IMG/VR virus record: IMGVR_UViG_3300044533_001376
Location: 1-27,211 of that record
Source of the DNA: a virus
Length of the DNA: 27,211 nt
Strand: one strand, 5' to 3'
Shown: piece after piece, positions 1 through 12,339 of the stretch
How positions within the stretch are numbered: position 1 is the first letter of the stretch
Layout: each line of letters starts with the position of its first letter
Notes under the pieces: generated by a model
The model's input: the letters and a program-made list of their open reading frames with translations, nothing else
What the model was told of the DNA's origin: nothing
Database searches by the model: none
Made by a program: the position numbers and the translations under genes

Positions 1-59
1 GCATGACCGACGATATCTTTTGGTCAGCTGTCCGTCGTAGCAAAAATGGAAGGACATAA
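1..59 (+). CDS. 3' end of an upstream gene (partial)
   Basis: An open frame enters from the left edge and stops at TAA 57-59, which shares its last A with the ATG of the portal gene (TAATG coupling). About 19 codons are visible, ending in ...RRSKNGRT. Upstream of a portal gene the usual neighbour is the large terminase subunit, so this could be its C-terminus, but nothing visible proves that. An ATG at position 3 is in frame but need not be the start. Confidence 0.45.
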   Translation, partial: MTDDIFWSAVRRSKNGRT

Positions 60-2230
60 TGGCAGAAAGACAGTCACTCTTTGGCCGCATCCTTGGCGGC
101 GTTGGCATTAGCTTTGGCACATCCGATAAGGCCATGAGCACAGTCCCGGAGTACGACGATGCCCCCTATGCCCGGGGCGTTGCTGGCGTTACTCACCATG
201 CAAAGCGCAGCACCCAGCAGCTCCGTCGCTGGTCGCGCACAAACCCTTGGATTCGCGCCGCTATCAACCTTCGCCGCACCCAGGTCAGCCGCGCCAAGTG
301 GGACATTGTTGCCATTGACTCCGACAGCCCAGTAAATCCAAGGAAAGTCCAAGAAATTAAAGACCTTTTCCGCACGCCAAATGCAAAGATGGAATCGTTC
401 CGTTCGCTCATGGAGCCAATCATTGAGGACATTCTTGTGCTTGACCAGGGAGCTATTGAGGTGGTCCCAACCAAGGGTGGTCGAATCGGCTCGGGAAACC
501 GGCCAATTGCCGGCCTCTACGGAAAAGACTCTGCAAAGATTGTGTTTGACTCCGCTTGGGACGGCACTGACCTGGAAAGGCCTCGCTACTACGAGTTTGA
601 CCCCGACGGCCGAGAGGTTGCGCGCTACCTTAATCACGAGCTGATTGTCATTATCTCTAACCCGGTGACCTACACCCCACTTGGCCTTTCGCCACTTGAG
701 GTTTTGTCAGAAACTATTGAGTCAGACCTTGCTGCTGCCGCATATAACGCTAAGGCAGTCATGGCCGCAGCGCCTCCAGGCGTCCTTCACCTTGGAGAAG
801 GCGTGCGCGCCGACCAGGTTGATGCGTTCCGCGCATACTGGGACGCAGAGATCGCCGGTCGAAGCCAGATTGCTATTACCGGCGGTGGGAAGGGCATTCA
901 GTGGATGCCACTTGCCTCTTCTAACCGCGACATGCAGTTCATGGAGTGGCAGGTCTACCTTGCCCGAAAGATCTGTGCTGTCTTTGGCGTTCAGCCACAG
1001 GACATCGGCATTGGGTTTGACGTTAACCGCAGCAGCTCGGAAACGGGCGCAGCATTTACGCAGGATGTCGGCATTGCGCCTCTCCTGGACCTTATCGCCG
1101 AGTACCTTACCCGAGAAATTGTTTGGCGCTACGACAAAAACCTTCGCTTTGCCTACACCGACATGGGGCGACAGAGCCAGGGCGAAATGTCCGCATACTA
1201 CAAGTCGGCACTCGCCGGCCTCCCGTGGCTTCGCCTCAACGACGCGCTTCGTGAGCGCGGTCAAGATGGCGTTGGCGAACAGGGCGAACAAATCTGGATT
1301 CCAACCCCGCAGGGCTATATGCCAATGGATCTTTACATGAAGTACCTAAACAACCTTGTCTCCGGAGGACAGCCTGCTCCGGACGGAGGCACTCCGCCGA
1401 GCGCCAACCAGCCGCAAGGCGTGCCAACCCCGCCACAAGGCTCGGACGTGACCCCAGACAACACGCCTCCAAATGCTCCGCAGTCCCAGACTGCAAAAGC
1501 AGAGCACAATCCAATTATCGTGTGTGACATTGACGGAACCTTGACAACTAGCGACGGAAGCAATGAGCCAAATGAATCTGTTGTTGCGTATTTGCAGGAG
1601 AAGTCTGATACCCATCGCATCTTCATCCTTAGCGCACGATCAGCCAAGCGTCTTGAGGAAACCCAAGAGTGGCTGGAAGAAAACGATGTGCCACACGATG
1701 CGTTGTATCTCTCAGACTTCCCAGCTGGAGCTGGCCTTCAGTTTAAGAAGTACAAGATTTCTAAGATCCTTGAAGAGAGTGGCAATGTTACTGAGGCTAT
1801 CGAAAACGATGCTGAGGCTCGCAGTGCCTACAAGTCTGCTGGTGTTCAGAATGTCCACGGACCAGAAGAGGTCTCAAGCAAGTATGCAGCTGCTGACTAT
1901 TCCGGAATTAACCTCAATGTTCCTTCGTCGGTTCAAGCAGAGGCTAAGCGCGGCCTGAAATGGCGAGAAGAGTTTGGCCGTGGCGGGATTGGGCCGGGCC
2001 AGACTACTGCTCGCATGCTTATTGGAAATAAGATGACGATTGCTCGCGTCCGAAAGATGCGTGCGTTCTTGGCCCGACACGAGGTAGATAAGCAGGGTGA
2101 AGGATTTAACCCAGGCCAGACTGGCTATCCATCTGCCGGCAGGATTGCATGGGCTCTCTGGGGCGGAGATCCTGGCCAGTCGTGGTCTAACAAGATCATG
2201 CGGCAGGTTGAGTCCCGCGAAAAGCGATAA
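59..2230 (+). CDS. Phage portal protein fused to HAD-type phosphatase and a C-terminal prohead-associated domain
   Basis: This 723-residue protein is much longer than a usual portal (about 400-550). Residues 1 to about 430 read as a phage portal of the HK97/SPP1-like fold, the dodecameric ring through which DNA enters the capsid. A proline/glutamine-rich linker (about 435-480) follows. Residues 484-600 form a HAD phosphatase-like domain: motif I is CDIDGT with D490 and D492, motif II is FILSARS at 522-528, and a late acidic IENDAEAR segment fits motif IV. The last ~95 residues (EFGRGGIGPG, FLARHEVDK, SAGRIAWALWGGDPG) match a conserved domain usually seen at the ends of phage prohead proteases and other head proteins. 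The ribosome site GGAAGGA lies just before the ATG, and the start overlaps the previous stop. The role of the phosphatase domain is unknown. Confidence 0.85.
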   Translation: MAERQSLFGRILGGVGISFGTSDKAMSTVPEYDDAPYARGVAGVTHHAKRSTQQLRRWSRTNPWIRAAINLRRTQVSRAKWDIVAIDSDSPVNPRKVQEIKDLFRTPNAKMESFRSLMEPIIEDILVLDQGAIEVVPTKGGRIGSGNRPIAGLYGKDSAKIVFDSAWDGTDLERPRYYEFDPDGREVARYLNHELIVIISNPVTYTPLGLSPLEVLSETIESDLAAAAYNAKAVMAAAPPGVLHLGEGVRADQVDAFRAYWDAEIAGRSQIAITGGGKGIQWMPLASSNRDMQFMEWQVYLARKICAVFGVQPQDIGIGFDVNRSSSETGAAFTQDVGIAPLLDLIAEYLTREIVWRYDKNLRFAYTDMGRQSQGEMSAYYKSALAGLPWLRLNDALRERGQDGVGEQGEQIWIPTPQGYMPMDLYMKYLNNLVSGGQPAPDGGTPPSANQPQGVPTPPQGSDVTPDNTPPNAPQSQTAKAEHNPIIVCDIDGTLTTSDGSNEPNESVVAYLQEKSDTHRIFILSARSAKRLEETQEWLEENDVPHDALYLSDFPAGAGLQFKKYKISKILEESGNVTEAIENDAEARSAYKSAGVQNVHGPEEVSSKYAAADYSGINLNVPSSVQAEAKRGLKWREEFGRGGIGPGQTTARMLIGNKMTIARVRKMRAFLARHEVDKQGEGFNPGQTGYPSAGRIAWALWGGDPGQSWSNKIMRQVESREKR

Positions 2231-2385
2231 TGGCTGAGAAGCTATACCATCAGCAGCCGTGCTTTTGCATCCCTTGTCGTGTAATTCGCAATCAGCCGAA
2301 ATCAAAGCAACCTGCGTCTGATACTATTGCTGATGATGAGACCCCTAACAAAAAGCCAAAGGGAAAGCGCGGCAAGAAAGCTTAG
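2230..2385 (+). CDS. Small lysine-rich protein with a cysteine triad
   Basis: This 51-codon frame starts on the last A of the portal stop (TAATG), the same coupling used elsewhere in this arm. The product starts MAEKLYHQQPCFCIPCRV and ends in a strongly basic GKRGKKA tail. The CxCxxC cluster could bind a metal, and the basic tail could bind nucleic acid, but the family is not recognised. Its 3' end overlaps the start of the methyltransferase gene in another frame. The coupling and composition support a real gene; the short length limits certainty. Confidence 0.5.
   Translation: MAEKLYHQQPCFCIPCRVIRNQPKSKQPASDTIADDETPNKKPKGKRGKKA
2319..2327 (+). promoter_or_regulatory. Extended -10 promoter of the methyltransferase (leaderless)
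   Basis: TG-A-TACTAT is an extended -10 element whose last base lies 5 bases before ATG 2333, so the predicted transcription start falls on or next to the start codon. The same layout precedes both HNH genes. No clear -35 box is visible, as expected for extended -10 promoters. Confidence 0.5.
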
Positions 2386-3475
2386 CCACTTCTCCACGTT
2401 TAGTGGGGTTGGCGGCATTGACCTCGGGCTTGAGTCCGCCGGTTGGCACACTGTCGCCTTCTGTGAAAATGCACCGTACCAATCGGCCATTCTTGCGCGT
2501 CAATGGCCGAACATCCCAAATTTCGGAGATATCACAACTATTAGCACGGATAAAACCGGCGAGCCATGGCAATCTGCTACGCTTTGGTCAGCAGGGTTTC
2601 CTTGCCAAGATTTGAGTAGCGCAGGAAAGCGAAAGGGGTTTAGCGGTGAGCGATCAGTCCTTGCCTTCAGCTTCCTCAACCTTGTCGAAGCGTTCTCGCC
2701 AGAATGGGTCCTCCTTGAAAACGTCCCCGGACTCCTCACCTCAAACGGCGGAAGAGACATGGGCCGGCTCGTCCAGGAAATGGATGAGCTCGGGTATGGC
2801 GTGGCGTGGCGAACTGTGGATGCATCGAGCTTCGGAAGCTGTCAACTGCATGGGGGAAGGCGCCCAGTGCCCCAGCCGCGCCGTCGAGTTTTCCTTCTCG
2901 GACATCGTGGAACCAGTCGTGCCGGCGAGGTTCTTCTTGACACCAGAGGAAGCAACGAATTACCTTGGGCGTTCGGTCACAACGTCAGCCAGTGGCACGA
3001 AAATAGGTTTTACGCCGGACCTCCACCAGATGATTCTGGACACTATCAACCAGCAGCGCTTGACTTTGCGAAGATTGACTACAGTAGAGATGGAGCGCCT
3101 GATGGGGTGGCCGGACGGGCACACGCTAGTCCCAGGATTCCGACGTCTGCACGTCAAAACCACCAGCTCGTAACAACACCCAACTCAGAGGACGGCCCTA
3201 TCCGGATGTTCCGCAAGAACGAGCGAAACCAGAAGTCCGGATTCTTTGAGGCATGGACAGAGGATGGCCGGTTCAGCACCCTGACAGCATTTGCCTCCTC
3301 GGGCGTCTTCGGGCAGCACCTTCTCACTGGCGGCGCCTCTATTGAGCACCCCCTGTTGGACCGGGCCAACGAGTCAACAAGAGCCGACGCCTGCGGCAAC
3401 GGCGTAGTCAGTCAAGTCGCGGAATGGATTGGGCTACGGATCGCAGAAAACATGCGCTTGCACGGAGAACTCTGA
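2333..3475 (+). CDS. C5-cytosine DNA methyltransferase
   Basis: Dcm-type methyltransferase of about 380 residues, transferring methyl from S-adenosylmethionine to cytosine C5 in DNA. Motif I is FSGVGGIDLGL, motif IV is GFPCQDLSSAGKRKGF with the catalytic Cys, motif VI is ENVPGLL, motif VIII is QPRRRVFLLG (bases 2873-2902), and motif X is ACGNGVVSQVAEWIG near the C-terminus. The motif IX region expected between VIII and X is missing from this frame: it is encoded in the overlapping +1 frame (next entry). ATG 2333 is preferred because the extended -10 lies just upstream; TTG 2327 and ATG 2336 are alternatives. There is no cognate restriction enzyme nearby, so it is probably an orphan enzyme protecting phage DNA. 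Activity of this frame alone is uncertain. Confidence 0.85.
   Translation: MMRPLTKSQRESAARKLSHFSTFSGVGGIDLGLESAGWHTVAFCENAPYQSAILARQWPNIPNFGDITTISTDKTGEPWQSATLWSAGFPCQDLSSAGKRKGFSGERSVLAFSFLNLVEAFSPEWVLLENVPGLLTSNGGRDMGRLVQEMDELGYGVAWRTVDASSFGSCQLHGGRRPVPQPRRRVFLLGHRGTSRAGEVLLDTRGSNELPWAFGHNVSQWHENRFYAGPPPDDSGHYQPAALDFAKIDYSRDGAPDGVAGRAHASPRIPTSARQNHQLVTTPNSEDGPIRMFRKNERNQKSGFFEAWTEDGRFSTLTAFASSGVFGQHLLTGGASIEHPLLDRANESTRADACGNGVVSQVAEWIGLRIAENMRLHGEL
2646..3173 (+). CDS. Overlapping +1-frame ORF carrying methyltransferase motif IX
   Basis: A 175-codon frame lies wholly inside the methyltransferase gene, one frame further on (GTG 2646, preceded by AAAGGGG). Its second half looks strongly protein-like: FSFSDIVEP, then PARFFLTPEEATNYLGR, then RRLTTVEMERLMGWPDGHT at 3069-3125. 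The last segment is the standard RRLTPxExxRLQGFPDGxT motif of C5-methyltransferases. In a normal enzyme it sits between motifs VIII and X of the same chain, whereas here those motifs are in the other frame. It may be a separately translated accessory protein, the product of +1 frameshifting, or the remnant of compensating indels or a sequencing error. The first half may be only the shadow of the main frame. Confidence 0.5.
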   Translation: MSDQSLPSASSTLSKRSRQNGSSLKTSPDSSPQTAEETWAGSSRKWMSSGMAWRGELWMHRASEAVNCMGEGAQCPSRAVEFSFSDIVEPVVPARFFLTPEEATNYLGRSVTTSASGTKIGFTPDLHQMILDTINQQRLTLRRLTTVEMERLMGWPDGHTLVPGFRRLHVKTTSS

Positions 3476-3477
3476 TA

Positions 3478-3486
3478 TGATACGCT
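3478..3486 (+). promoter_or_regulatory. Extended -10 promoter of HNH gene (leaderless)
   Basis: TG-A-TACGCT ends 6 bases before ATG 3493, so the predicted mRNA starts at the start codon. No Shine-Dalgarno sequence is present before this ATG, which agrees with leaderless translation. Confidence 0.5.
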
Positions 3487-3492
3487 TCTGGT

Positions 3493-3801
3493 ATGCCTCA
3501 TAAAGACCCGGTAACCCCGGAACTCCGTTACGCAGTCATGAAGCGCGACCACACTTGTGTGGGGGCGAAAATTGGCATGGGCGGAGCTTGTGGCAGCCAG
3601 TTTGGTCCCGGCGAAGGAATCATCTGGGAGCTGGATCACGTTGACAATGCCGGACTTGGGAAGCGAGGCCCAAGCACCATGGAGAACCTTGTCTTGCTTT
3701 GTGGGTATCACCACAGGGTAAAGACCGAGTCGACCAAGAAGTGGCGACCAGTACTAAGGGAGTACCTTGATGAAAAATCCAAACATGCAGTACCCAGGTG
3801 A
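3493..3801 (+). CDS. HNH endonuclease
   Basis: This 102-residue protein has the HNH core LDHVDNAGLGKRGPSTMENL followed by LLCGYHHRVKTE. It holds the metal-binding and catalytic histidines of the beta-beta-alpha-metal fold, with extra cysteines (TCVGAKIG..ACG) upstream. HNH proteins nick or cut DNA. In phages they act in homing or, when encoded near terminase and portal, in packaging. Either fits here because the gene lies just downstream of the portal and methyltransferase. It has its own extended -10 promoter and no ribosome site. Its 3' end overlaps the next gene by 32 bases. Confidence 0.85.
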   Translation: MPHKDPVTPELRYAVMKRDHTCVGAKIGMGGACGSQFGPGEGIIWELDHVDNAGLGKRGPSTMENLVLLCGYHHRVKTESTKKWRPVLREYLDEKSKHAVPR

Positions 3802-4015
3802 CCTTGGGTGCTCGTACGAGAATTGCCCGAATAAGCACGACATTCGCGTCAAGCGCGGCAACCTGATGCCCCTGGGGGAGATGCAATCGTTTGCCGCCGG
3901 AACGGTGGTACACAGGGCCTGTATGGAGCGAATCCTCCGCAGCGGTGGCGGGCCACTTGACAGTGCGGCAGAAATTTCAGATAATACGGAAGTAGCAGAG
4001 CAGGAGGGGCTATGA
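3770..4015 (+). CDS. Hypothetical protein
   Basis: An 81-residue protein. ATG 3770 is chosen because AAGGGAG lies 7 bases upstream; TTG 3767 is also in frame. It has cysteines at CSYENCPNKH and one more in RACMER, which could form a small zinc site, and a polar acidic C-terminus. The gene overlaps the HNH gene before it and shares an ATGA overlap with the next gene, so the three are translated as a coupled series. The family is not recognised. Confidence 0.65.
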   Translation: MKNPNMQYPGDLGCSYENCPNKHDIRVKRGNLMPLGEMQSFAAGTVVHRACMERILRSGGGPLDSAAEISDNTEVAEQEGL

Positions 4016-4299
4016 CAGAGCAGGTTAATTGGAATATCGACGATATGCGCATTGGCGTAGACGCTGTTGCTGCTGCGATCCCCGTGATGGCCCAGTCGAT
4101 TAATGGCCTTCAGGACCGCAACGCTATGGCACCATGGGTGTACCAGTCGGTATCAGCGGAACTGCGAAATGGCAGCTGCGCAGCAATGGAGCCAGAGCGC
4201 TGGTGGCAGGTTGCCGACGGAATTCAGATGGCAGTTGATTACTGGATTGATCACGGAACAACGTATTCATTTGACGGAGAATTGGAGACCAATGAGTAA
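4012..4299 (+). CDS. Hypothetical protein
   Basis: A 95-residue acidic protein with no recognised domain. It starts at ATG 4012, overlapping the preceding stop by four bases, and has GAGCAGGAGGGG just upstream as a strong ribosome site. Tryptophan-rich stretches (PWVYQSV, ERWWQVADGIQ) suggest a folded helical protein. It overlaps the following regulator gene by eight bases. The position between a nuclease and a regulator, ahead of the recombination genes, gives no firm clue to function. Confidence 0.65.
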   Translation: MTEQVNWNIDDMRIGVDAVAAAIPVMAQSINGLQDRNAMAPWVYQSVSAELRNGSCAAMEPERWWQVADGIQMAVDYWIDHGTTYSFDGELETNE

Positions 4300-4540
4300 G
4301 CAGAGCGGGGCAGAGCACAAGGAGCTGCGAGTAGAGCAGCGCCAGAAGAATGCCAAGGTGTGGCAGTTGATTAAGGAGTCCGGGGTGAAGCGACGATGGG
4401 TCGCCATGCATCTTGGTGTATCCTATGGGTATCTGAACCAGGTCCAGTATGGACATGCGCCGATGACGGCGGAGATGCGACGACGACTGTCGGAGTATCT
4501 TGGTCTTAGTGAAGCCGAGCTTTTTAGCTCGGAGAAGTGA
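4292..4540 (+). CDS. Cro/C1-type helix-turn-helix regulator
   Basis: This 82-residue protein starts at ATG 4292, inside the end of the previous gene. Its central part, VKRRWVAMHLGVSYGYLNQV followed by RRRLSEYLGLSEAELF, has the spacing and hydrophobic pattern of a Cro/C1 (XRE) DNA-binding domain: a recognition helix around SYGYLNQV and a final helix typical of the fold. The N-terminus is basic and polar. Phage proteins of this size usually repress promoters as dimers. No obvious operator pair is visible next to it. It lies just ahead of the recombination genes and could control them. Confidence 0.7.
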   Translation: MSKQSGAEHKELRVEQRQKNAKVWQLIKESGVKRRWVAMHLGVSYGYLNQVQYGHAPMTAEMRRRLSEYLGLSEAELFSSEK

Positions 4541-4548
4541 GGTTAGGA

Positions 4549-5148
4549 ATGGTATACGACAATGCACCGAAGAAGAAGTTTGCAGAGGATTACATCGATG
4601 TAGCGGAGCGTCTCCGCGCTTGGTACGAAGCGTACCCAAATGCCCGGATCGAAACGGAAATCGTTTCCCTGAGCGACAAGAACGTTGTCGTCAAGGCGTG
4701 GGCATATCGCGGCGAAGTTGCCGATGAGAAGCCAGCCGGAACGGGCCACGCATCTATGGCAATCCCGGGCAGCACGCCCTACACCCGTGGCTCAGAGCTT
4801 GAGAACACCGAAACGTCGGCAGTTGGCCGCGCACTTGTCATGGCCGGCCTTCCGTCCAAGAAGGTAGCGTCGGGCGACGAGATCCGTTCTAAGGCTGGCG
4901 CTGTTAAGCCTTCACCGGTGGTGCAGGAGAAGCAGAAGTCAGACGATGCAAAGATCCTTCTTGCAGCGCAAGATGCGTTTGGCGATGATCCCGCGCTGAT
5001 TGATTGGCGCGATTCCATCAACGGCTCCGTAACCGGTGCCGACCTTACCGCTGTCGCCCAGCAGATCGCCGCATCAAACCTTGACGCCGACAAGAAGCGC
5101 TGGCTTGGCCAGTACTACACTGCGCGCAAGGCCGAGCTCGGCGCCTAA
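4549..5148 (+). CDS. Putative single-strand annealing/recombination protein (ERF-like)
   Basis: A 199-residue protein. ATG 4549 is favoured over GTG 4537 because GAGG sits seven bases before it. The segment from about residue 85, ENTETSAVGRALVMAGL, resembles the ETSAVGRAL signature of phage proteins related to ERF/Rad52-like single-strand annealing proteins, and PGSTPYTRGSELEN before it is also typical. The C-terminal third is a variable linker plus a helical tail. A RecB-type exonuclease starts on its stop codon (TAATG), the normal partner arrangement of annealing protein plus exonuclease. Family assignment rests on motif memory and context, so the exact family is uncertain. Confidence 0.6.
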   Translation: MVYDNAPKKKFAEDYIDVAERLRAWYEAYPNARIETEIVSLSDKNVVVKAWAYRGEVADEKPAGTGHASMAIPGSTPYTRGSELENTETSAVGRALVMAGLPSKKVASGDEIRSKAGAVKPSPVVQEKQKSDDAKILLAAQDAFGDDPALIDWRDSINGSVTGADLTAVAQQIAASNLDADKKRWLGQYYTARKAELGA

Positions 5149-6008
5149 TGCGCGAACACGTCAGCATCAGCGAGATCCGCGAATTCCAGGCCTGCCCTCT
5201 TAGGTGGTGGTACCGCTACGAGAATGGCCTCTGGACCGAAAAGACGAGCTCGTTCTTCGCGCTCGGAACTGCGGTGCACGCAGGTCTCGCTAACTGGTAT
5301 GAGCCGCTCAACGGCGGCAAGAAGACCGGCGACCTTACCATGCCAATCAAGCTCTACCGTGCTGCGTTTGCAGACGAGTCAGAAAAGGTTAACTGGACTA
5401 ACGAGTCCGACAAGGACCCAATTAGCCAGAGCGCCTTGGGCGAAGAGATGTTGAAGGCCGCGATCTTTGAAGGCGACGATTGGACTGCTAAGGCAGTAGA
5501 GCGCACCTTTATGGCCGACATTGCACACAGCCGGTTGGGAAAGCTTCCAATCAAGCTGAAGTCCGTGTTGGACATGGTGACCAATACCAACGACGTCGTT
5601 GAACATAAGACCGCTACACGGAAGTGGGAAGAGGGCCGAGAGCATGGCGACATTCAGGCGACTGCCTATGTGTCTGTTGTGCGCCAGAACTACGACCACG
5701 ACCCGAAGGTGACGTTTAACATCGTTAGCAAGCACTCGAAGGGTCCAAACGTGGAGCGCCGCACTACCACCCGAACGCAAGACGATATCGACCGCCTGTA
5801 TATCACGGTCCGAGCGATGTTGGATGCGAAGGAGAAGGGTGCAATCTATCCAAACCCAACCGCGTTCGTGCATGCGACGTGTGAGTTCAGGAAGTTGTGT
5901 GACAAGTGGGAAGCTCATCCTCAACCGCTACCAGCAACAGCATCTGGGATGCTTACGGTGCTGCCATCCATCCGCCAGTCGTCGCTGACGAAGATTTACG
6001 GCGAGTGA
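5148..6008 (+). CDS. PD-(D/E)XK exonuclease, RecB/Cas4-like
   Basis: This 286-residue nuclease has the core of the RecB/Cas4 family: D142 in LKSVLDMV, the E152-H-K154 motif in VVEHKTATR, and the Q170-ATAY motif. A cysteine near the N-terminus (CPLRWWYRY, C16) and C245 and C251 near the C-terminus resemble the split cysteines that hold an iron-sulfur cluster in Cas4/AddB nucleases. Only three of the usual four are evident. Such enzymes resect DNA ends and supply single strands to the annealing protein encoded just upstream, to which this gene is coupled by TAATG. Its 3' end overlaps the next gene by about 100 bases. Confidence 0.82.
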   Translation: MREHVSISEIREFQACPLRWWYRYENGLWTEKTSSFFALGTAVHAGLANWYEPLNGGKKTGDLTMPIKLYRAAFADESEKVNWTNESDKDPISQSALGEEMLKAAIFEGDDWTAKAVERTFMADIAHSRLGKLPIKLKSVLDMVTNTNDVVEHKTATRKWEEGREHGDIQATAYVSVVRQNYDHDPKVTFNIVSKHSKGPNVERRTTTRTQDDIDRLYITVRAMLDAKEKGAIYPNPTAFVHATCEFRKLCDKWEAHPQPLPATASGMLTVLPSIRQSSLTKIYGE

Positions 6009-6313
6009 ACGATCTCGTTTGGTGGCGCAAGGAGATTGAATCGGCGCCAAACAAGCAGGGTCGCATGGGCGACTTCTATCAGGCGATGACCGGCAAGAAG
6101 CTTAAGCGCTCCGAGTACGGTCGAATCTTCAAGTTGATGCAATCGTTCCCGGGCGGCATCCCGGGGCTCATGTCGGCGATCTGTGAGGCGGCAATCCGCG
6201 ATTTGGACGGTGACCCGCTCGCCTACGTGAAAAAGCTCGCAGATAGTCCGCGCTGGAAGGCTCCGGTAGCGGGAAGGAAGAAGGAGAACTACGATGGGAT
6301 TATCCAAGATTGA
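5906..6313 (+). CDS. Possible replication organiser / helicase-loader partner
   Basis: A 135-residue frame starting at GTG 5906; the ribosome site AGGAAG is 11 bases upstream, so a later start is possible. It overlaps the exonuclease end. Helical segments (DLVWWRKEIES, DFYQAMTGKKLKRSEYGRIF, AICEAAIRDLDGDPLAYVKK) suggest a small all-helical protein. It directly precedes and overlaps a DnaC-type helicase loader, the position taken in many phages by a DnaD-like or O-like replication initiator. That is context only; there is no firm motif. Confidence 0.55.
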   Translation: MGSSSSTATSNSIWDAYGAAIHPPVVADEDLRRVNDLVWWRKEIESAPNKQGRMGDFYQAMTGKKLKRSEYGRIFKLMQSFPGGIPGLMSAICEAAIRDLDGDPLAYVKKLADSPRWKAPVAGRKKENYDGIIQD

Positions 6314-6965
6314 CCCAAACGTTGATTTTGCGTACATCATGACCCCAGAAGGGGCAGTGATGCGCCGCCAGGACGAGCCACCGACGTCAGATGTCGCTAA
6401 TGCGCGCATTGAGAAGGCTGGCGTGTCAAAGCGGTACATGAATGCGTCGTTTAGCGGCCTGAAGGAGCTCCCAGAGGCCAAGACGGCTGTGAAAGTCGCC
6501 AAGGATTGGGCAGAAGCGCCACTTACCGACCGTGGATTCTTTTTTGTCGGTACTCCGGGGGTCGGAAAGACCTATTTGGCGGTTGCAGCCCTTCGGCACA
6601 AGATTGAAAACGGGTTATTGAACGCTCGATTCATCAATGTGCCGCTGTTTTTGGATGCAGTGCGGTCAAGCTTCAAGTTTTCGGACGATTCGGTGCAGTC
6701 AGACTTCCAATTTATCTGCGACCGGGCCTCTGTTGTCGTTTTGGATGACTTTGGCAAGGAGCGTGCGACCGATTGGGCGACGGAACGGCTCTATGTGATC
6801 GTTGAGAGCCGCTATTCGTCGATGCTCCCAACGATTGTGACGTCAAATCGCACGCTGGACGAGCTGAATGACCTTGGATACGGTGCAACTGTGTCACGAT
6901 TGACCGAAATGTGCACTGTTGTCAAGGTTGGCGGGTCCGATTTGCGACCAAAGCTGCGTTCGTAA
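6294..6965 (+). CDS. DnaC/IstB-like helicase loader (AAA+ ATPase)
   Basis: A 223-residue AAA+ ATPase. The Walker A motif is GTPGVGKT (residues 86-93), Walker B is VVVLDDFGKE (D151, D152), sensor 1 is TIVTSNRT, and a late conserved arginine lies in TVSRLTEM. This is the DnaC/IstB group, which loads the replicative helicase on DNA. IstB partners of IS21 transposases look alike, but there is no transposase here and the neighbours are replication genes, so helicase loading is the better call. AAGGAG lies seven bases before ATG 6294. The stop overlaps the RusA start by one base. Confidence 0.88.
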   Translation: MGLSKIDPNVDFAYIMTPEGAVMRRQDEPPTSDVANARIEKAGVSKRYMNASFSGLKELPEAKTAVKVAKDWAEAPLTDRGFFFVGTPGVGKTYLAVAALRHKIENGLLNARFINVPLFLDAVRSSFKFSDDSVQSDFQFICDRASVVVLDDFGKERATDWATERLYVIVESRYSSMLPTIVTSNRTLDELNDLGYGATVSRLTEMCTVVKVGGSDLRPKLRS

Positions 6966-7339
6966 TGTCCGACGCGCTTGAAATTACGCTATACGGCCGG
7001 CCACCAAGCTGGAACTCAGCGTATCGGGCGCGAAAATCGTACATCTACATGACCAGGGAAGCAAAAGACTGGAAAAAGTCAACAACGACACTGACAAAAG
7101 TCGCGGTGCACGACCAGCAGTGGTCCTGCAAACCTGATACAATGCTTGTGGTTGACGTGTGGATCTACGTGAAGCGGACAATTGACGCGGACAACATCCT
7201 AAAACTGACGCTCGACGCGGTTGCCGGCGGTTTAGGAGTTAATGATGCAAGGTTCCTACCGAGAGTGTGGGAGCTTAAGAAGAAGTGCGACGAAGAAAAA
7301 GTCGTATTGAAGATTAGTGAGGTAGAAAGCAATGATTAA
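6965..7339 (+). CDS. rusA: RusA-family Holliday junction resolvase
   Basis: A 124-residue protein with the RusA signature: YGRPPSWN near the N-terminus, D74-A-D76-N followed by ILKLTLDAVAGGLGVND with D94. These acidic residues correspond to the catalytic metal-binding aspartates of RusA. The enzyme cuts four-way DNA junctions made during recombination or replication and so resolves branched phage DNA before packaging. It starts at ATG 6965 on the last base of the loader's stop and overlaps the SSB start by eight bases, inside one recombination/replication operon. Confidence 0.88.
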   Translation: MSDALEITLYGRPPSWNSAYRARKSYIYMTREAKDWKKSTTTLTKVAVHDQQWSCKPDTMLVVDVWIYVKRTIDADNILKLTLDAVAGGLGVNDARFLPRVWELKKKCDEEKVVLKISEVESND

Positions 7340-7715
7340 GGTACAGCTGATTGGGTATGTTGGCGCGAAGCCAACGGTACGAGCAACACAGAAGGGTCGC
7401 CAGGTAGCGAATTTCAATGTCGCTGTTCACGGCGCAAAGGATGCGAACGGCGAAGAGAAGTCGACGTGGTATCCAATTGCTTGCTGGGATGGCCGGGCAG
7501 AACTCGCCGACAAGGTTGTCCAGAAGGGCGATCTTATCTGGATCGAGGGAACACCGGAGATTTCGTCGTGGACCGACAAGAATGATGTCGAGCACACGGA
7601 AATTGCCATCACTGCAAAGTTCATTCAGGTGCTGAAGCGCTCCGGCAAGGGCAAGGAAGAGGGCGAGGCCCCACGTGCAGCAATGCAGGAGTCACTTGAA
7701 GAGCTTCCGTTCTAA
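7332..7715 (+). CDS. ssb: Single-stranded DNA-binding protein
   Basis: A 127-residue SSB: an OB-fold from the start to about residue 105 (IKVQLIGYVGAKPTVR, VANFNVAVHG, STWYPIACW, GDLIWIEGTPEISSW), a short disordered linker, and the acidic tail ESLEELPF, equivalent to the DDIPF tail through which SSB recruits partner proteins. It coats single-stranded DNA during replication and recombination. It is coupled to RusA before it (overlap) and to a small gene after it (TAATG). Confidence 0.9.
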   Translation: MIKVQLIGYVGAKPTVRATQKGRQVANFNVAVHGAKDANGEEKSTWYPIACWDGRAELADKVVQKGDLIWIEGTPEISSWTDKNDVEHTEIAITAKFIQVLKRSGKGKEEGEAPRAAMQESLEELPF

Positions 7716-7924
7716 TGGCACACACGTATGACCTTGTTCAGATCACCGAAGATCTTGAACGACTGAAGACGATGGACCATGGCAAGGAGCGCGAGGCGCT
7801 ACTTTATACACTTGTGCCAGTTCTTTGTGAACTGATCGGTGCTATGGCTAAGATTGCGGATAAGATCTCCGAGCCCGTGGAAAGCAGCAGTGAACGCAGG
7901 GTTGCGCGCAAGCCAATGAACTGA
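7715..7924 (+). CDS. Hypothetical small helical protein
   Basis: A 69-residue protein starting on the stop codon of ssb (TAATG). It is predicted to be helical (ITEDLERLKTMDHGKEREAL, then LVPVLCELIGAMAKIADKI) with a basic C-terminus. It has no recognised domain. Because it is the last gene of the recombination operon it may assist SSB or the replication proteins, but this is context only. Its stop codon forms part of the extended -10 element in front of the thioredoxin gene. Confidence 0.6.
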   Translation: MAHTYDLVQITEDLERLKTMDHGKEREALLYTLVPVLCELIGAMAKIADKISEPVESSSERRVARKPMN

Positions 7925-7930
7925 TACGCT
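7922..7930 (+). promoter_or_regulatory. Extended -10 promoter upstream of thioredoxin
   Basis: TG-A-TACGCT is identical to the element before the first HNH gene. Here the start codon is about 80 bases away, giving an mRNA with a leader that contains the hairpin at 7961-7986. Confidence 0.4.
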
Positions 7931-7960
7931 GGCCCACCGCAGACGCGGAGTCATCTAATT

Positions 7961-7986
7961 GAGGGGGTTGGGAAACCAGCCCCCTC
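7961..7986 (+). promoter_or_regulatory. 11-bp hairpin with GAAA tetraloop in the thioredoxin leader
   Basis: GAGGGGGTTGG pairs with CCAGCCCCCTC (one G-U pair) around GAAA. It follows the operon end and precedes GGAGG of the thioredoxin gene. It may end upstream transcription or structure the leader. The bases after it are pyrimidine-rich but not a clean T-run. Confidence 0.5.
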
Positions 7987-8009
7987 TCTCTATCCCTATT
8001 GGAGGCACC

Positions 8010-8312
8010 ATGGTTAAGCATACGTTCGCCCAAGTCGTTCTCGACGAGACTAAGAAAGGCCCCACCATCGTGGATTTCTGGGCCGAGTGGTGCCAGCCGT
8101 GCAAGCAGATCAGCAGAGAGCTTGATCGCCTCGCCAAAATGAAGCCGGTCAATATTTTGCGCGTCAATGTCGATGCACGCCCCGACGCAGCAAAAGAGTA
8201 CGCGATCAAATCGCTCCCGACGCTTCTTTTCTTCTCCAGTTTTGGTGCTACCCCCGTTCAACTTAATGGGTTTGTCAGTGCCGAAGAGATGATCCGTCGT
8301 TTTAGGCTCTAG
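8010..8312 (+). CDS. Thioredoxin
   Basis: A 100-residue protein with the thioredoxin fold: IVDFWAEWCQPCKQIS holding the redox pair C28 and C31 (WCQPC instead of the common WCGPC), and SLPTLLFF with the conserved cis-proline. It reduces disulfides and, in some phages, serves as a DNA polymerase processivity factor or an electron donor for ribonucleotide reductase. No such partner lies in this window. ATG 8010 is chosen because GGAGG is directly upstream and the protein then has the usual length. It has its own leader and promoter. Confidence 0.88.
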   Translation: MVKHTFAQVVLDETKKGPTIVDFWAEWCQPCKQISRELDRLAKMKPVNILRVNVDARPDAAKEYAIKSLPTLLFFSSFGATPVQLNGFVSAEEMIRRFRL

Positions 8313-8372
8313 GTAGGGCTGTCACACACTCCTACCCAAATACCGACACCAGATTGACGTGACCTACGCCTT

Positions 8373-8412
8373 TTGTTGCTATCTCCGTCTTGCAACAATC
8401 GGAAATTTTTTT
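8373..8412 (+). terminator. Possible terminator after thioredoxin
   Basis: TTGTTGC pairs with GCAACAA (7 bp, 12-base loop), and a run of seven T lies 7 bases further on. The stem is weak and the T-run is offset, so this is only a candidate. Confidence 0.3.
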
Positions 8413-8422
8413 ATATTTTGTA

Positions 8423-8474
8423 GGGGCTGTGCTGTTATCTCCTTCTCCCATCTGGACAGCCCAGAGGCAGCCCC
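8423..8474 (+). other. Folded element in the gap before tRNA-Ile
   Basis: GGGGCTG (8423-8429) pairs with CAGCCCC (8468-8474), and inside it GCTGT (8431-8435) pairs with ACAGC (8456-8460). The two stacked helices are perfect. The 233-base gap between thioredoxin and tRNA-Ile holds no gene. This could be part of the tRNA precursor leader or a small RNA. Confidence 0.35.
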
Positions 8475-8545
8475 TTACCGTTACAGTATGCTGACAGCAG
8501 TTACGGGGTAAACGAGGCTCTCCGTGGCTCCTACAGGGCTCCCAG

Positions 8546-8621
8546 GGGGGCGTAGCTCAATGGTTAGAGCACCGAGCTTATATCTCGGCGGTTCCTGGTT
8601 CGAATCCAGGCGCCCCTACCA
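8546..8621 (+). tRNA. tRNA-Ile (anticodon UAU)
   Basis: A complete cloverleaf: acceptor GGGGGCG with CGCCCCT (G-U at the first pair), D-stem GCTC/GAGC, anticodon stem CCGAG/CTCGG with loop CTTATAT, T-stem CCTGG/CCAGG with TTCGAAT, and an encoded CCA end. The anticodon TAT reads AUA. Most bacteria read AUA with a CAU anticodon modified to lysidine, so a UAU tRNA is unusual and would supply AUA decoding without that modification. Confidence 0.92.
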
Positions 8622-8627
8622 CCGATC

Positions 8628-8636
8628 TGCTATGCT
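8628..8636 (+). promoter_or_regulatory. Extended -10 promoter of the second HNH gene (leaderless)
   Basis: TG-C-TATGCT ends 6 bases before ATG 8643, the same geometry as at 3478-3486. It begins 7 bases after the CCA end of tRNA-Ile. Confidence 0.5.
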
Positions 8637-8642
8637 TTTGCC

Positions 8643-9038
8643 ATGACGAGCCTTGACAGATTCATGAAATATGTTACGACAAATCCAGCGACCCAATGCT
8701 GGGAGTGGACAGGCGCCCTTGAGCAGAGTGGGTATGGTGCATTCAAGGACCAGGGGAAGAAAATAAATTCGCACCGGTGGAGCTATCGCCACTATAAAGG
8801 TGAGATTCCGAAGGGGTTGGACGTCGATCACCTGTGTCGCGTCCGGAAGTGCGTGAATCCAGAGCACCTAGAGGCCGTGACCCGCAAAATTAACGTTCAG
8901 CGAGGTCTGTCTGCACAGGAACGAAAAACCCACTGCATTCATGGACACGCATATACGCCAGAGAATACGTATCGCTATCCTGATGGCGAACGTGAGTGTC
9001 GGACCTGCAAATATTACGGTGGACGCATTCCGGAGTAG
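8643..9038 (+). CDS. HNH endonuclease with C-terminal zinc motif, between two tRNA genes
   Basis: A 131-residue protein with CWEWTGALEQSGYGAF at the N-terminus, HRWSYRHYKGEIP, the HNH core LDVDHLCRVRKCVNPEHLE, and a C-terminal metal motif HCIHGHAYTPENT plus CRTC. This is the HNH_3-type architecture common in phage homing endonucleases. It has its own extended -10 and no ribosome site. Its last ten bases, including the TAG stop, are the first ten bases of tRNA-Asn, so the gene appears to have inserted precisely between tRNA-Ile and tRNA-Asn. A free-standing homing nuclease acting on the tRNA locus is a reasonable inference. Confidence 0.85.
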   Translation: MTSLDRFMKYVTTNPATQCWEWTGALEQSGYGAFKDQGKKINSHRWSYRHYKGEIPKGLDVDHLCRVRKCVNPEHLEAVTRKINVQRGLSAQERKTHCIHGHAYTPENTYRYPDGERECRTCKYYGGRIPE

Positions 9039-9103
9039 CTCAGTGGTAGAGCGGGCGACTGTTAATCGCCTGGTCGTAGGTTCGAGCCCTACCTCCGGAG
9101 CCA
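9029..9103 (+). tRNA. tRNA-Asn (anticodon GUU)
   Basis: A cloverleaf with acceptor TCCGGAG/CTCCGGA, D-stem GCTC/GAGC, anticodon stem GGCGA/TCGCC with loop CTGTTAA (anticodon GTT), T-stem GTAGG/CCTAC with TTCGAGC, discriminator G and an encoded CCA. Its 5' end overlaps the HNH stop codon. Confidence 0.93.
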
Positions 9104-9455
9104 TTTCAGGTATTTTAAAAAAATTCCCGGCCAGGCATTGCCCTTGGCTGTTGTTTTGCGCGAGAGGGGTTGAGGGGGATTGGTAAAATGTTGATTTGCG
9201 CGCAGTGAACGCGACGGGGGCGGGGTCATCTGTTCGCGGCGAGGGGTTGGGGCGTATGTCGAAGGGCGGGCAGCGGGTTCTGGTATTCCGACGACCAAGA
9301 CCGGCACACGGGCATCGTTCGCTGTTGTCGTGTCGGCCCCTTCTGCGGTCAGCCGTACCGGGGGCGGGTCACCCCCCTGCGTCGATGTTCGGGCAACGGC
9401 CAAAGGGGGGCAACGGGGGGGCGGGGGGTGAGAGCTATACACGGGCAACAAGAAA
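9104..9455 (+). other. Non-coding junction between the rightward and leftward arms
   Basis: No convincing gene. The stretch starts with an A/T-rich run after tRNA-Asn and becomes G-rich from about 9165, with several GGGG runs, densest at 9360-9430. It contains GTCGATGTTCGGGCAAC in the orientation opposite to the related TTGCCCGAACATCGAC at about 10246. It marks the convergent end of the rightward and leftward arms. Confidence 0.5.
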
Positions 9456-9477
9456 CCCCACCCCCGAAGGGGTGAGG
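9456..9477 (-). terminator. Intrinsic terminator, UUCG loop
   Basis: On the minus strand CCTCACCCC-TTCG-GGGGTGGGG (9 bp with one G-U) is followed by TTTCTTGTT. It ends the leftward gene 9504-9962. Confidence 0.8.
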
Positions 9478-9503
9478 CTCCTCGTTCCCGAAGGGTCAGC
9501 AGG

Positions 9504-9962
9504 TCAGCCGAGCGGCTGCTCCTCTCCCGCGATGACCCACTTGACCAAGCGGGTCAGGTTGATGGTGCGGTGCGAGTGGAAGGGGCGGCGGCTCTCGCAA
9601 GCCGAACCGACCTTCCCCGCGTAGGCGCACGCCGTCGTGTAGCCGTACTCGGTCGGAGCCATCACCACGACATCAACGCAAGGCTCACCCTTCTTGGTGA
9701 GGTACACCCCGCCCTCGTGGACATCGCGGTTCACCTGACCTGCCACGCGGAACTGAAAGACCTCACCCTTCTCGGTGTTGATGGACTCACCGCAGACCTT
9801 CACGCGACCAAGAGCGCGATGCTCGGCAAAGTTGGCGGCAGCCTTCTCCTCGCGCTTGATGAACTGCTTCTTGGTCGTGGGTGCTGACCACGCCTCAATG
9901 ACGACGATCATCCCGCCGCTCTTGGCTGCTGCGTTCAGCCCTGCCTGTAAGGTCATTGCCAT
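9504..9962 (-). CDS. Uncharacterised paralogue A1 (putative CX9CX6HXH protein)
   Basis: A 152-residue protein starting at ATG 9962 behind GGAGAG. It is a paralogue of the proteins at 13744-14211 and 15864-16319. The N-terminal half is lysine/alanine-rich and helical with AEHRALGRVK. The C-terminal third is nearly identical in all three: APTEYGYTTAC, then GSACESRRPFHSHRTINL, then LVKWVIAGEEQ. The shared C-X9-C-X6-H-X-H spacing suggests a metal site. No known family is recognised. It forms a one-gene cassette with its own promoter, 5' hairpin and terminator, and is the last gene of the array. Confidence 0.8.
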   Translation of the reverse strand: MAMTLQAGLNAAAKSGGMIVVIEAWSAPTTKKQFIKREEKAAANFAEHRALGRVKVCGESINTEKGEVFQFRVAGQVNRDVHEGGVYLTKKGEPCVDVVVMAPTEYGYTTACAYAGKVGSACESRRPFHSHRTINLTRLVKWVIAGEEQPLG

Positions 9963-9981
9963 TTGGCTCTCCCTGTCGGAG

Positions 9982-10049
9982 CGGAGCCGAGTGGCTCCGT
10001 CTGTGTTCCCCGACCTGTTGATTCTCGCAGGTCTGGCGGCGGAGCGCAA
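9982..10049 (-). promoter_or_regulatory. Promoter and leader hairpin of 9504-9962
   Basis: The -35 box is TTGCGC (10044-10049), spacer 17, -10 GAGAAT (10021-10026). The leader holds CGGAGCC-ACTC-GGCTCCG (9982-9999). Here the hairpin lies 21 bases after the -10, further than in the other units. Confidence 0.6.
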
Positions 10050-10115
10050 GACCCCGACCCATCAGGCGCAACGCGCTCAGTTGCCCACGCGCCGGTCGCG
10101 CCCCTTTCTTGGGTC

Positions 10116-10310
10116 TAAGGGGTAAGGGGTACAGGGGTGAATGAACTGACTGAACGAACTGACTGAACTGACTGATGAGTGAAGGCCGCAACGCTGCGAG
10201 CTGCGCGCTCATTGACCGCAAGCCGGACACGCTCGGCGCGGCGCGTTGCCCGAACATCGACAGAGAAGGGGGGAAGGGGGGAAAGGGGAGAAGGGGAGCA
10301 ATGATGACCG
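10116..10310 (+). repeat. G-rich / TGA-rich spacer 1
   Basis: GGGGTAAGGGGTA-type runs start at about 10118. They are followed by a TGAACTGAC-type tract to about 10186, a variable part with TTGCCCGAACATCGAC, and a second G-run block at 10264-10298. No gene is present. Confidence 0.8.
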
Positions 10311-10323
10311 ACTAACAAGAAAC

Positions 10324-10348
10324 CCCCCACCCCCGAAGGGGTGAGGGG
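10324..10348 (-). terminator. Intrinsic terminator, UUCG loop
   Basis: Minus strand CCCCTCACCCC-TTCG-GGGGTGGGGG followed by TTTCTTG, after the stop of 10376-10795. Confidence 0.8.
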
Positions 10349-10375
10349 CTCGTTGCCCGAAGACCGGGCGAGCGA

Positions 10376-10795
10376 CTAGCGGAACACCTCAACATAGGAG
10401 CACGGCGCGCAGCCGTCGCAGTCCTCGTTGCCGAGGCGAACCTGCCCAGCGTGGAGCATCTGGTCGCAGGTGTAGCCGCTATGAACGACCTCACACATAG
10501 ACAGCACCCCGCTCTTGGTGAACGACGACAGCGGCAGCGAGACCGCCACGAGACCGAGCCAGCGGTCAAGTCCGAGATGGTCGGCGTATGACTCAGCGAA
10601 GCCGTAGCAGATGGTCGCTGCCTGTGGCTCGACATTGACCCCATCGGTGGCAATGACGATGCGCTCATAGGTGTAGCGGAGCCCCTGCTCGTTGGTCTCG
10701 GTGATGGTTGCCCCTGTGCCGGTATTCGCCCACTTCGTCGTGGTGATGTCGGCGGCGAGGCTCTCGGTCTCTCCTGCCTTCCAGTTCTCTGCCAT
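10376..10795 (-). CDS. Hypothetical cysteine-containing protein
   Basis: A 139-residue protein starting at ATG 10795 behind AGAGAGGAG. The N-terminus is acidic and polar. The C-terminal part contains MCEVVHSGYTCDQM and CDGCAPC, so up to five cysteines could coordinate metal. There is no signal peptide or membrane segment and no recognised family. It forms a single-gene cassette with its own promoter (10843-10871), a weak leader hairpin and a strong terminator. Confidence 0.7.
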   Translation of the reverse strand: MAENWKAGETESLAADITTTKWANTGTGATITETNEQGLRYTYERIVIATDGVNVEPQAATICYGFAESYADHLGLDRWLGLVAVSLPLSSFTKSGVLSMCEVVHSGYTCDQMLHAGQVRLGNEDCDGCAPCSYVEVFR

Positions 10796-10818
10796 TTGTG
10801 AACTCCTCTCTGTGCTGC

Positions 10819-10871
10819 TCGGTCATCTGCCGAACTACCCAGAGTGTACCGGCACACAGGCAACGCCGCAA
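10819..10871 (-). promoter_or_regulatory. Promoter and leader hairpin of 10376-10795
   Basis: -35 TTGCGG (10866-10871), spacer 17, -10 TACACT (10843-10848). The leader starts with TCGG-CAGATGA-CCGA (10819-10833), a shorter stem than most others. Confidence 0.6.
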
Positions 10872-10939
10872 GCACCCGACGCACCAGACGCAACGCTGCC
10901 CATACATCGACAGGACGCACGGGTGCGTAGTTCCGGTGG

Positions 10940-11317
10940 GTCAAAGGGGTAAAGGGGTAAGGGGAGTAATGAGTAATGAATGAATAATGAACTGATGAAT
11001 GATGACTGCGCAGCTACACGGGTGATGACCGTTCATCGACAGACGACGACTACGCGTGGTTGCCCAATGCCGGTGCTGGCCAGTTAGGGCAAGGGGTCAA
11101 GGGGTAGAAGGGGTAGAAGGGGTAGAAGGGGTAAGGGGTGAACTGATGAACCCGACTGATGACTGACCAATGAGCAACCGTCGCAGCTCCGCGCTCATTG
11201 ACCGTTCATCGACAGGGAACAGATGACCGCAGCCGGAGCGGAACCGATGGGGTAGAAGGGGGATAGGGGAAAGGGGGAAGGGGAACGAATGATGAGTGAA
11301 TGACGAATGATGACCGC
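10940..11317 (+). repeat. Three tandem G-rich / TGA-rich spacer units without genes
   Basis: Units begin at about 10940, 11095 and 11249. Each is a block of GGGG runs (GGGGTAGAAGGGG-type) followed by a TGAATGATGA-type tract. Between them lie short common segments: CATCGACAG at 11034 and 11207 (CATCGACA at 11319), TTGCCCA...CCGG at about 11063 and 11341, and CGCAGCT. They look like cassettes that have lost their genes. Confidence 0.75.
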
Positions 11318-11387
11318 TCATCGACATAGAGCCGCGAAGGTTGCCCACTACCGGAGCCGAGCGATAGGGCCAACACAGGGCAACAAA

Positions 11388-11415
11388 AAACCCGCCCCCC
11401 GAAGGGAGCGGGTTT
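11388..11415 (-). terminator. Intrinsic terminator
   Basis: Minus strand AAACCCGCTCCC-TTCG-GGGGGGCGGG followed by TTTTTTG, the strongest T-run of the set, after the stop of 11440-11931. Confidence 0.88.
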
Positions 11416-11439
11416 CTGTTGCCCGATACTCGACGAAGG

Positions 11440-11931
11440 CTAGCCCGTGATGATGGCTCCCTTCCTGCGGTTCTCAATGCCCAGAGCCCACGCCAAATCC
11501 CCGTACGAAGCCCGAGCGTCGGCGAGGTCTTGCATGCGCCGCTGCTTCTGCTCCCAGAGCGCAACGATGACGCGCCGAGCCGACTCAGCCAGAGGCTCGT
11601 AGTCCTCACCGAAGCCCGTCGAGTAGTGGTCAGCGTCCGACACCAACTCACGGAAGCCCTCGTCATCCATCGCCAAGACGACATAGGAGCCGTCGTCGTA
11701 GTTGCCCCACTCCGCTCGTGATGACCGCACCTCGAATGTGGCGAAGTCAAGGTCGCGGCTGGTGTGGTCGTTCCAGAACGCCGCAGGTACGGCGACGAGG
11801 TGCTGACCGCCCCCGGACTCGGTGTTGTGCTGGGCGGCATCTCCGAACTCCTCAGCCGTCAGCGACTCCATCACCGCTGCGATTGCTGACCGCACCTCGA
11901 CGATGCGCTGCTGGTTCTGCTCAGTCCACAT
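11440..11931 (-). CDS. Hypothetical protein
   Basis: A 163-residue acidic protein starting at ATG 11931 with AAAGGAG upstream. It begins with a helical segment (IVEVRSAIAAVMESL). A mixed middle (VAVPAAFWNDH, YVVLAMDDEGFRELVSD) follows, then a helical C-terminus rich in arginine and glutamine (ALWEQKQRRMQDLADARAS). It has no cysteines, signal peptide or membrane segment. The family is not recognised. It is a single-gene cassette with a good promoter and the strongest terminator of the array. Confidence 0.72.
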   Translation of the reverse strand: MWTEQNQQRIVEVRSAIAAVMESLTAEEFGDAAQHNTESGGGQHLVAVPAAFWNDHTSRDLDFATFEVRSSRAEWGNYDDGSYVVLAMDDEGFRELVSDADHYSTGFGEDYEPLAESARRVIVALWEQKQRRMQDLADARASYGDLAWALGIENRRKGAIITG

Positions 11932-11982
11932 AGCGGACTCCTTTCGTCAGGGCGGGTCTGTGCCGACAACCCCAACACCGAG

Positions 11983-12011: not shown

Positions 12012-12059
12012 GCCCGACGCACCAGACGCAACGCCCGACCTATCCCATAGCCGCAGTAG

Positions 12060-12320: not shown

Positions 12321-12339
12321 GAACCAGCTGATAAACAAA

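Follow-up and report, generated by a model that had tools for sequence, protein, structure and literature searches.

Conserved putative extended -10 elements at leaderless spacing before methyltransferase and HNH genes in a phage contig and its relatives

The window analyzed here is the whole 27,211-nucleotide (nt) stretch, positions 1 to 27,211, of IMG/VR virus record IMGVR_UViG_3300044533_001376, from an uncultured phage. Its content includes a portal gene, recombination and SSB genes, a thioredoxin gene, two tRNA genes and numerous small minus-strand open reading frames (ORFs). Close relatives of the window are present in IMG/VR, and megablast of positions 1-9200 against 50,697 named phage records returned no match. 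Three plus-strand genes of the window are each preceded, at short distance, by a sequence fitting the extended -10 motif TGNTANNNT, whose TG is generally held to render a -35 box dispensable. The first encodes a C-5 cytosine DNA methyltransferase (2336..3475; Pfam PF00145, 2.3e-40), and its predicted extended -10, TGATACTAT at 2319..2327, lies within an ORF at 2230-2385. The second, HNH1 (3493..3801), encodes a small HNH-like protein (PHROG 333 HNH, 6.1e-6; Pfam HNH, 0.022, below the cut-off), and its putative element, TGATACGCT at 3478..3486, closely follows the methyltransferase stop codon. The third, HNH2 (8643..9038), encodes a predicted HNH_3 endonuclease (PF13392, 6.4e-14) and lies between tRNA genes on the same strand. 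Its candidate -10, TGCTATGCT at 8628..8636, is 6 nt past the end of tRNA-Ile(tat) (8546..8621; ARAGORN, Rfam), and its stop codon (9036-9038) is provided by the 5' part of tRNA-Asn(gtt) (9029..9103; ARAGORN). All three elements were found where a sequence-only reading of the window had placed them. The spacings it gave, 5, 6 and 6 nt to ATG codons at 2333, 3493 and 8643, are correct as measured; the conserved start of the methyltransferase, however, is ATG 2336, with 2333 a possible start, and the spacing from that codon is 8 nt.

Comparison of homologous upstream regions revealed that motif and spacing recur before the methyltransferase and HNH genes of related contigs. In these counts identical upstreams were collapsed, and places with <80 nt of upstream DNA were removed, as were methyltransferase matches spanning less than ~250 residues (partial copies; the distant L010, L122 and L123) and HNH2 matches spanning less than ~75 residues. 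A methyltransferase homologue in contig G010 (48%), which is without the element, was also excluded. The extended element, with TGN directly before TANNNT under constraint, was present in 15/15 methyltransferase, 12/18 HNH1 and 17/21 close HNH2 distinct upstreams, close being defined as at least 57% identity. Before the methyltransferase, the bases T, G, T, A and T are invariant and TGNTANNNT stands 8 nt before the conserved ATG in every case. ATG 2336 is likewise kept throughout and ATG 2333 is not conserved, which makes a leader of ~2 nt likelier than none. The 2230-2385 ORF encodes SDTI, SAAI, SATL or SAKL across this element while the element itself is unchanged, and the constraint therefore appears to act on DNA. 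For HNH1, the element stands at spacing 6, and TANNNT without the extension adds one further upstream (L104; 13/18 in total). Close HNH2 homologues have TANNNT at 6 in 19/21, the two without it being L010 and L115; among 55 divergent homologues, TANNNT was found at 6 in 10 and the TG extension in five. In these alignments the motif and its spacing persist while flanking DNA, overlapping codons and the bases of the spacer vary, and we regard the motif, its position and its constraint as well supported.

The dependence on spacing was surveyed in the window and eight related contigs, over 761 genes supported by homology. A homology-based set was used because a simple codon-usage gene caller overlooked the methyltransferase, HNH1, HNH2 and thioredoxin genes. 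The 24 methyltransferase/HNH genes of this set, which include the G010 homologue, have a median codon score of -0.002 (vs 0.100 for 678 others); their codon use is atypical, which is consistent with a foreign origin and no proof of it. TGNTANNNT occurred exactly 6 nt upstream of an ATG or GTG 18 times and at spacing 8 six times, every one of the latter before a methyltransferase. Spacings 4, 5 and 7 gave 2, 2 and 1 occurrences, and the 21 control spacings (0-3 and 9-25) gave 10 in total, with 0-2 at each. Plain TANNNT likewise peaks at spacing 6 (40 genes vs 3-19 at the other listed spacings). An extended element at spacing 6-8 preceded 17 of the 24 methyltransferase, HNH1 and HNH2 genes vs 8 of the 737 others, with a Fisher p of 1.5e-23, although related contigs are not independent events, and G001 is near-identical to the window across 59-7924. 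Where methyltransferase and HNH genes have a leaderless-type -10, the TGN is present in 17/18. The eight other genes are those of a conserved CxxC protein in five contigs, a helix-turn-helix (HTH) protein and two small unknowns. Plain TANNNT stands at 6 before the genes of an epimerase and of a glycosyltransferase-like protein.

We considered whether such elements could arise by chance, through TGA stop codons followed by TA that generate TGNTANNNT near starts. The HNH1 and thioredoxin elements do adjoin or overlap TGA stops, and the motif is not enriched over the whole window (20 matches vs 26.6 expected). Against this, the methyltransferase element sits, invariant, in an open frame, HNH2 elements come after tRNA or other DNA, and the spacing profile is sharply peaked. 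Provided that the alignments are right, conservation already contradicts a chance origin, which we find scarcely credible. The evidence supports the view that the elements behave like promoters selected for leaderless spacing.

Genes in the first 9 kb of the window fall into three start classes: seven are led by a Shine-Dalgarno (SD) sequence, five overlap a preceding stop codon, and the remaining three are the methyltransferase, HNH1 and HNH2 (o4291 was omitted, as its coordinate is no start codon). Anti-SD energies are weak for the three genes (-1.9, -2.6 and -0.5 kcal/mol, respectively) and range from -8.3 to -13.1 kcal/mol for the seven SD-led neighbours. That the three genes differ from their neighbours in having no SD sequence therefore holds for these seven but not for the other five (ORF51, exo, the 6005 ORF, rusA and the 7715 ORF), which at -1.4 to -2.6 kcal/mol are also SD-less and whose starts overlap the preceding stop codon. 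Some methyltransferase/HNH genes in relatives reach -4.7 to -6.2 kcal/mol within 20 nt upstream.

Our interpretation, which we hold to be very probable, is that the three elements are host-type extended -10 promoters yielding leaderless mRNAs. A polymerase with a sigma factor of the sigma-A family (host-type) would use the extended -10 of each gene. Transcription is predicted to start 7 nt past the last T, which is the A of the ATG for HNH1 (3493) and HNH2 (8643), and the methyltransferase transcript is predicted to begin at ~2334, about 2 nt upstream of ATG 2336. Such an mRNA would be translated from its 5' AUG without an SD sequence. The arrangement would suit genes outside coupled operons, for example an HNH gene next to or inside tRNA genes, where neither a leader nor a ribosome arriving from upstream is available. 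We take leaderless transcription to be the reading that best fits the pattern, with the start sites and leaderless translation both predicted from it.

Leaderless TANNNT promoters are established in Actinobacteria generally (PMC3160421) and in M. tuberculosis, for which leaderless genes are documented along with TANNNT hexamers centred 7-12 bp upstream of start sites (PMC3898074). The elements described here resemble leaderless actinobacterial TANNNT promoters in having the hexamer shortly (6-8 nt) before the start, no SD and a dominant -10; in M. tuberculosis, leaderless expression is reported for 32/37 toxin-antitoxin pairs that have a primary start site (PMC3898074). They differ from those of M. 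tuberculosis, in which TGNTANNNT is reported as rare (7% of TANNNT promoters) but most active (PMC3898074), in the TGN before 17/18 methyltransferase/HNH genes with a leaderless-type -10 and in belonging to phage genes. The host may be actinobacterial. HNH2 homologues were detected in 38/394 genomes of the class of an Arthrobacter metagenome-assembled genome (MAG) vs 6/385 of the class of a Hyphomicrobiales MAG, the centre genomes being counted. An alignment search of genome contigs found no relative, and a single-protein scan found 10, too few to name a host.

HNH2 provided an association between the element and gene movement. At 19 loci (L008-L009 and L011-L027) HNH2 was found without a match, in the retrieved flanks, to any of 18 other window proteins (one of them mis-framed). 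TGNTANNNT-N6-ATG is present in 18/19 of these other neighbourhoods, and the 19th (L018) has too little upstream DNA. The element is also retained where the DNA around it is not. The HNH2 coding DNAs of L002 and L003 are 98% identical, their positions -60 to -16 are 24% identical, and TGCTATRCT-N6-ATG is in both; for L004 and L005, the corresponding identities are 94% for coding and 7% for upstream DNA, and TATACT-N6-ATG is in both, without TG in L004. These comparisons support the view that HNH2 behaves as a mobile gene. Within the window group, the overlap of the HNH2 stop codon with tRNA-Asn was observed in 8/8 of the loci displayed, the window included. With the stop codon inside tRNA-Asn, maturation of the tRNA 5' end would strip the stop from the transcript. 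An empty tRNA-Asn site was not found in this group. Contig L257 ends within the tRNA-Ile/HNH2 spacer. The only relatives with sufficient DNA after thioredoxin and no HNH2 match are L282 (3.3 kb) and L284 (2.2 kb).

Three relatives (L002, L005 and L006) have an additional TGCTATGCT after tRNA-Ile, 104-107 nt upstream of the HNH2 element. By comparison, the window, L001 and L003 look as though a deletion had brought the first element up to the ATG at equal spacing, the direction of the change being our reading of the alignments. A multibranched fold of ~100 nt with a long closing stem was also observed between tRNA-Ile and HNH2 in these three relatives (L002:5866-6000, L005:4660-4796 and L006:5867-6000). 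The fold has its own TGCTATGCT and extends, through the 3' strand of its stem, into the HNH2 -10. We do not claim it as an RNA gene, as its z-scores were weak (-0.34 to -1.14) and L005 had no gathering-level Rfam match except tRNAs.

A second case was found in Streptomyces phage Persimmon, in which the HNH gene gp159 has TGGTATACT-N6-ATG inside an apparent insert at L216 ~17697-18073 (junctions relative to Bartholomune) that is absent from phage Bartholomune. Within the region L216:17672-18320, the insert lies in a tRNA-Lys gene that is intact in Bartholomune, Mildred21 and Warpy. Along with the HNH frame and TGGTATACT, the insert supplies a replacement 3' half for the tRNA-Lys, located upstream of the HNH gene. 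The promoter-like element therefore sits within the inserted DNA. The gp159 stop codon, TAA, is in the anticodon-loop sequence of the leftover tRNA-Lys. Persimmon gp159 thus has empty-site relatives, and none was found for HNH2 of the window.

An alternative reading is that the encoded enzymes recognize the motif as their operator or target site, for autorepression, and that its likeness to a -10 is incidental. Such a site has a precedent in I-TevI, whose late promoter is overlapped by an operator that the enzyme itself binds (PMC2988022), and HNH2 adjoins tRNA genes in the window group. However, these five bases recur at identical spacing before genes of unrelated proteins (the methyltransferase, two HNH types, a zinc protein and an HTH protein), the motif fits a known promoter consensus, and by eye these genes have no further consensus in common. 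We consider the operator reading improbable.

The promoter reading is less easily tied to mobility, and several observations weigh against a tight link or against the interpretation at large. HNH1 is syntenic: in every compared locus that includes both flanks it occupies the interval between the portal gene and the 4537 ORF, except in the distant L105. Mobility of HNH1 is not supported. Five HNH1 upstreams are without TANNNT at 6, those of L105 and of L100-L103, and in L100-L103 HNH1 begins on the stop codon of the ORF before it or immediately after that codon. In L100-L104, HNH1 lies between the portal gene and the 4537 ORF with the methyltransferase absent. In the survey set, 7/24 methyltransferase/HNH genes do not have the extended element; TANNNT lacking the TG stands at 6 in one, the start falls on a stop codon in two, three show SD-like pairing at a candidate start, and the seventh, HNH2 of G008, is without a clear class. 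The zinc and HTH proteins have the extended element yet show no sign of mobility, and this -10 is also shared by the thioredoxin gene (below), which has an SD sequence and a leader containing a hairpin. The inference of an actinobacterial host is itself weakened by the absence of WhiB from 12/12 related contigs, possibly fragments, and by the portal's named relatives, which are mostly from Bacillus, Staphylococcus, Thermus and others (Arthrobacter, 4/189).

The element is also uncommon among the HNH genes scored in named actinophages and actinobacterial genomes. Among HNH genes of 16 distinct named phages, picked from the best 60 rows (1399 records had a match), an extended element was found at one and TANNNT at three, with spacings of 5-8 and any candidate start allowed. 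For HNH2 homologues at 30 actinobacterial loci (from the 38 matching genomes of 394), no extended element was found at spacings 0-30, and plain TANNNT was at 6 in one and at 7 in two. Five loci scored in the other class gave one extended element, at spacing 5 from a TTG. Generality across actinobacterial HNH genes was not found in these samples (1/16 in named phages, 0/30 loci). Persimmon and Clavibacter phage CMP1 were both picked for a wider scan because the element had already been seen there, a choice that limits them as evidence. In a 32-kb region of Persimmon, TANNNT was 5-8 nt before the annotated start in 3/6 HNH genes and 7/63 other coding sequences, with TG in two of the HNH genes (gp159 and gp161, each with TGNTANNNT-N6-ATG) and four of the others. 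In CMP1, TGATACTAT-N6-ATG before end2 was the sole extended element at spacing 5-8 from an annotated start among 44 coding sequences scored. These three named-phage genes share TGNTANNNT-N6-ATG with the HNH genes of the window and have named hosts.

It may be, then, that the promoters are real and unrelated to mobility, simply the way in which this phage lineage initiates genes that have no SD sequence and no stop-start coupling. We give this a little less than an even chance. It would account for the same geometry at the zinc and HTH proteins (and, with plain TANNNT, at the epimerase and glycosyltransferase-like genes), which show no mobility sign, for a syntenic HNH1 that is coupled instead where the methyltransferase is absent, and for the many scored actinobacterial HNH homologues, the majority, without the element. 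It does not readily account for the concentration of the element on methyltransferase/HNH genes, its retention by HNH2 in other neighbourhoods or its presence inside the Persimmon insert. Nor is the arrangement exclusive to mobile genes. The sequence-only reading, which took the element for a self-contained promoter of likely mobile genes, is thus supported in part, for HNH2 and not for the syntenic HNH1, and genes with no sign of mobility share the geometry. The evidence supports a link between promoter and mobility in two cases, HNH2 and Persimmon gp159, and the link is no general law.

We tentatively suggest a further possibility, namely that phages whose hosts are competent for leaderless expression contain a class of mobile "HNH-tRNA cassettes". 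Each moving unit would consist of an extended -10 and an HNH frame, with the stop codon taken from the target tRNA, and in Persimmon it would also include a replacement tRNA 3' half. Cutting at the tRNA-Asn 5' end would remove the HNH2 stop, and HNH translation and tRNA maturation would compete for each transcript. Deletions may capture new promoters, putting an existing transcription start exactly on the ATG. We regard this scheme as possible but doubtful.

Two further elements had been proposed in the window. The near-identical element before the thioredoxin leader is real: TGATACGCT, the same -10 type, is at 7922..7930 on the plus strand, upstream of a leadered, SD-led thioredoxin gene (8010..8312; PF00085, 4.2e-19 for the longer frame 7959-8312; anti-SD -9.3 kcal/mol). 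The four closest relatives displayed (L001, L002, L003 and L094) have TGATACGCT, TGATATGTT or TGATAGGTT there, and L115 has TGATAGGAT; it was not seen in L004-L007 or L117, several of whose rows are offset and may miss the place. The leader contains a plus-strand hairpin (7961..7986; fold z -3.75 for 7930-8010) of the GAGGGGGUUGG-loop-CCAGCCCCCUC type upstream of the SD, and by eye a similar sequence is in 11/11 of the displayed rows. The hairpin is possibly an attenuator or regulatory leader. The minus-strand element before a structured RNA did not hold up: TGATACGCC at 19154-19162 ends in C, misfits TGNTANNNT and recurs at 25656, and it was rejected as a fourth element. No Rfam match reached gathering score in 18500-19400.

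Additional features were observed in the window and its relatives. Between the small minus-strand ORFs at 9100-19300 there are many short G-rich intergenic stretches, with ggggtagggg-like and ATGAATGA-like runs, and one protein family is represented in this region three or more times (9504, 13744 and 15864). The gene at L125:8170-8592 (minus strand) and its homologues encode a conserved CxxC-rich protein of 140-166 aa with a leaderless-type -10; there was no Pfam match for L125 and no PHROG match for L125 or L160, and L149 matched endonuclease VII at 0.036. Lastly, HNH homologues in L067, L071-L075 and L077-L079 share an upstream TTCGTAYATTTRTGACTA-like block, which is possibly a Bacteroidetes-type promoter. 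Retention of host-type promoters beside HNH genes may therefore extend to other phage groups.

Earlier work predicted leaderless SigA-like promoters in Cluster O mycobacteriophages (PMC4351075) and at gene 90 of Adephagia (PMC11373665). The Cluster O predictions concern divergent and structural-operon promoters, and the report's account of HNH insertions does not tie them to such promoters (PMC4351075); the Adephagia prediction concerns a gene beside its toxin-antitoxin genes (PMC11373665). Unlike the elements described here, these precedents, as far as the two reports go, give no cross-lineage conservation of spacing (PMC4351075, PMC11373665). Among the free-standing seg and mob homing endonuclease genes of T4, some have dedicated promoters, located either immediately before the gene or within the 3' end of the one that precedes it, and segB lies between tRNA-Arg and tRNA-Ile, much as HNH2 adjoins tRNA genes (PMC2988022). 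T4 uses phage middle and late promoters, however, and seven of its free-standing genes seem to be promoter-less (PMC2988022), whereas here the promoters would be of host type with no leader predicted. In the T4 intron endonucleases the SD is occluded by RNA structure, and similar arrangements are described for segB and Aeh1 mobE (PMC2988022). The hidden HNH of ShiLan, within mycobacteriophage methylases, likewise combines an HNH with a phage methylase, has no detectable ribosome-binding site and was proposed to initiate leaderlessly (PMC11855218). It is an out-of-frame insert within the methylase, with a GTG start 18 bp into the insert, and a promoter is not mentioned in the main text (PMC11855218). 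The genes of the window, by contrast, are separate and have a conserved extended -10 at fixed spacing. In the portions of the open PMC literature covered by our search, we found no account in which leaderless promoters of the extended -10 type are conserved before HNH or methyltransferase genes of phages.

Homing biology has yet to explain fully how selfish nuclease genes come to be expressed wherever they land. The promoters described for T4 are borrowed or phage-specific; here, the sequence evidence suggests a host-type signal of 18 nt that would combine promoter and translation start. The model predicts exact 5' ends that can be mapped. TGNTANNNT-N6-ATG can be used as a search rule for short HNH and other autonomous genes in phage tRNA arrays, and it may aid gene callers that depend on SD motifs.

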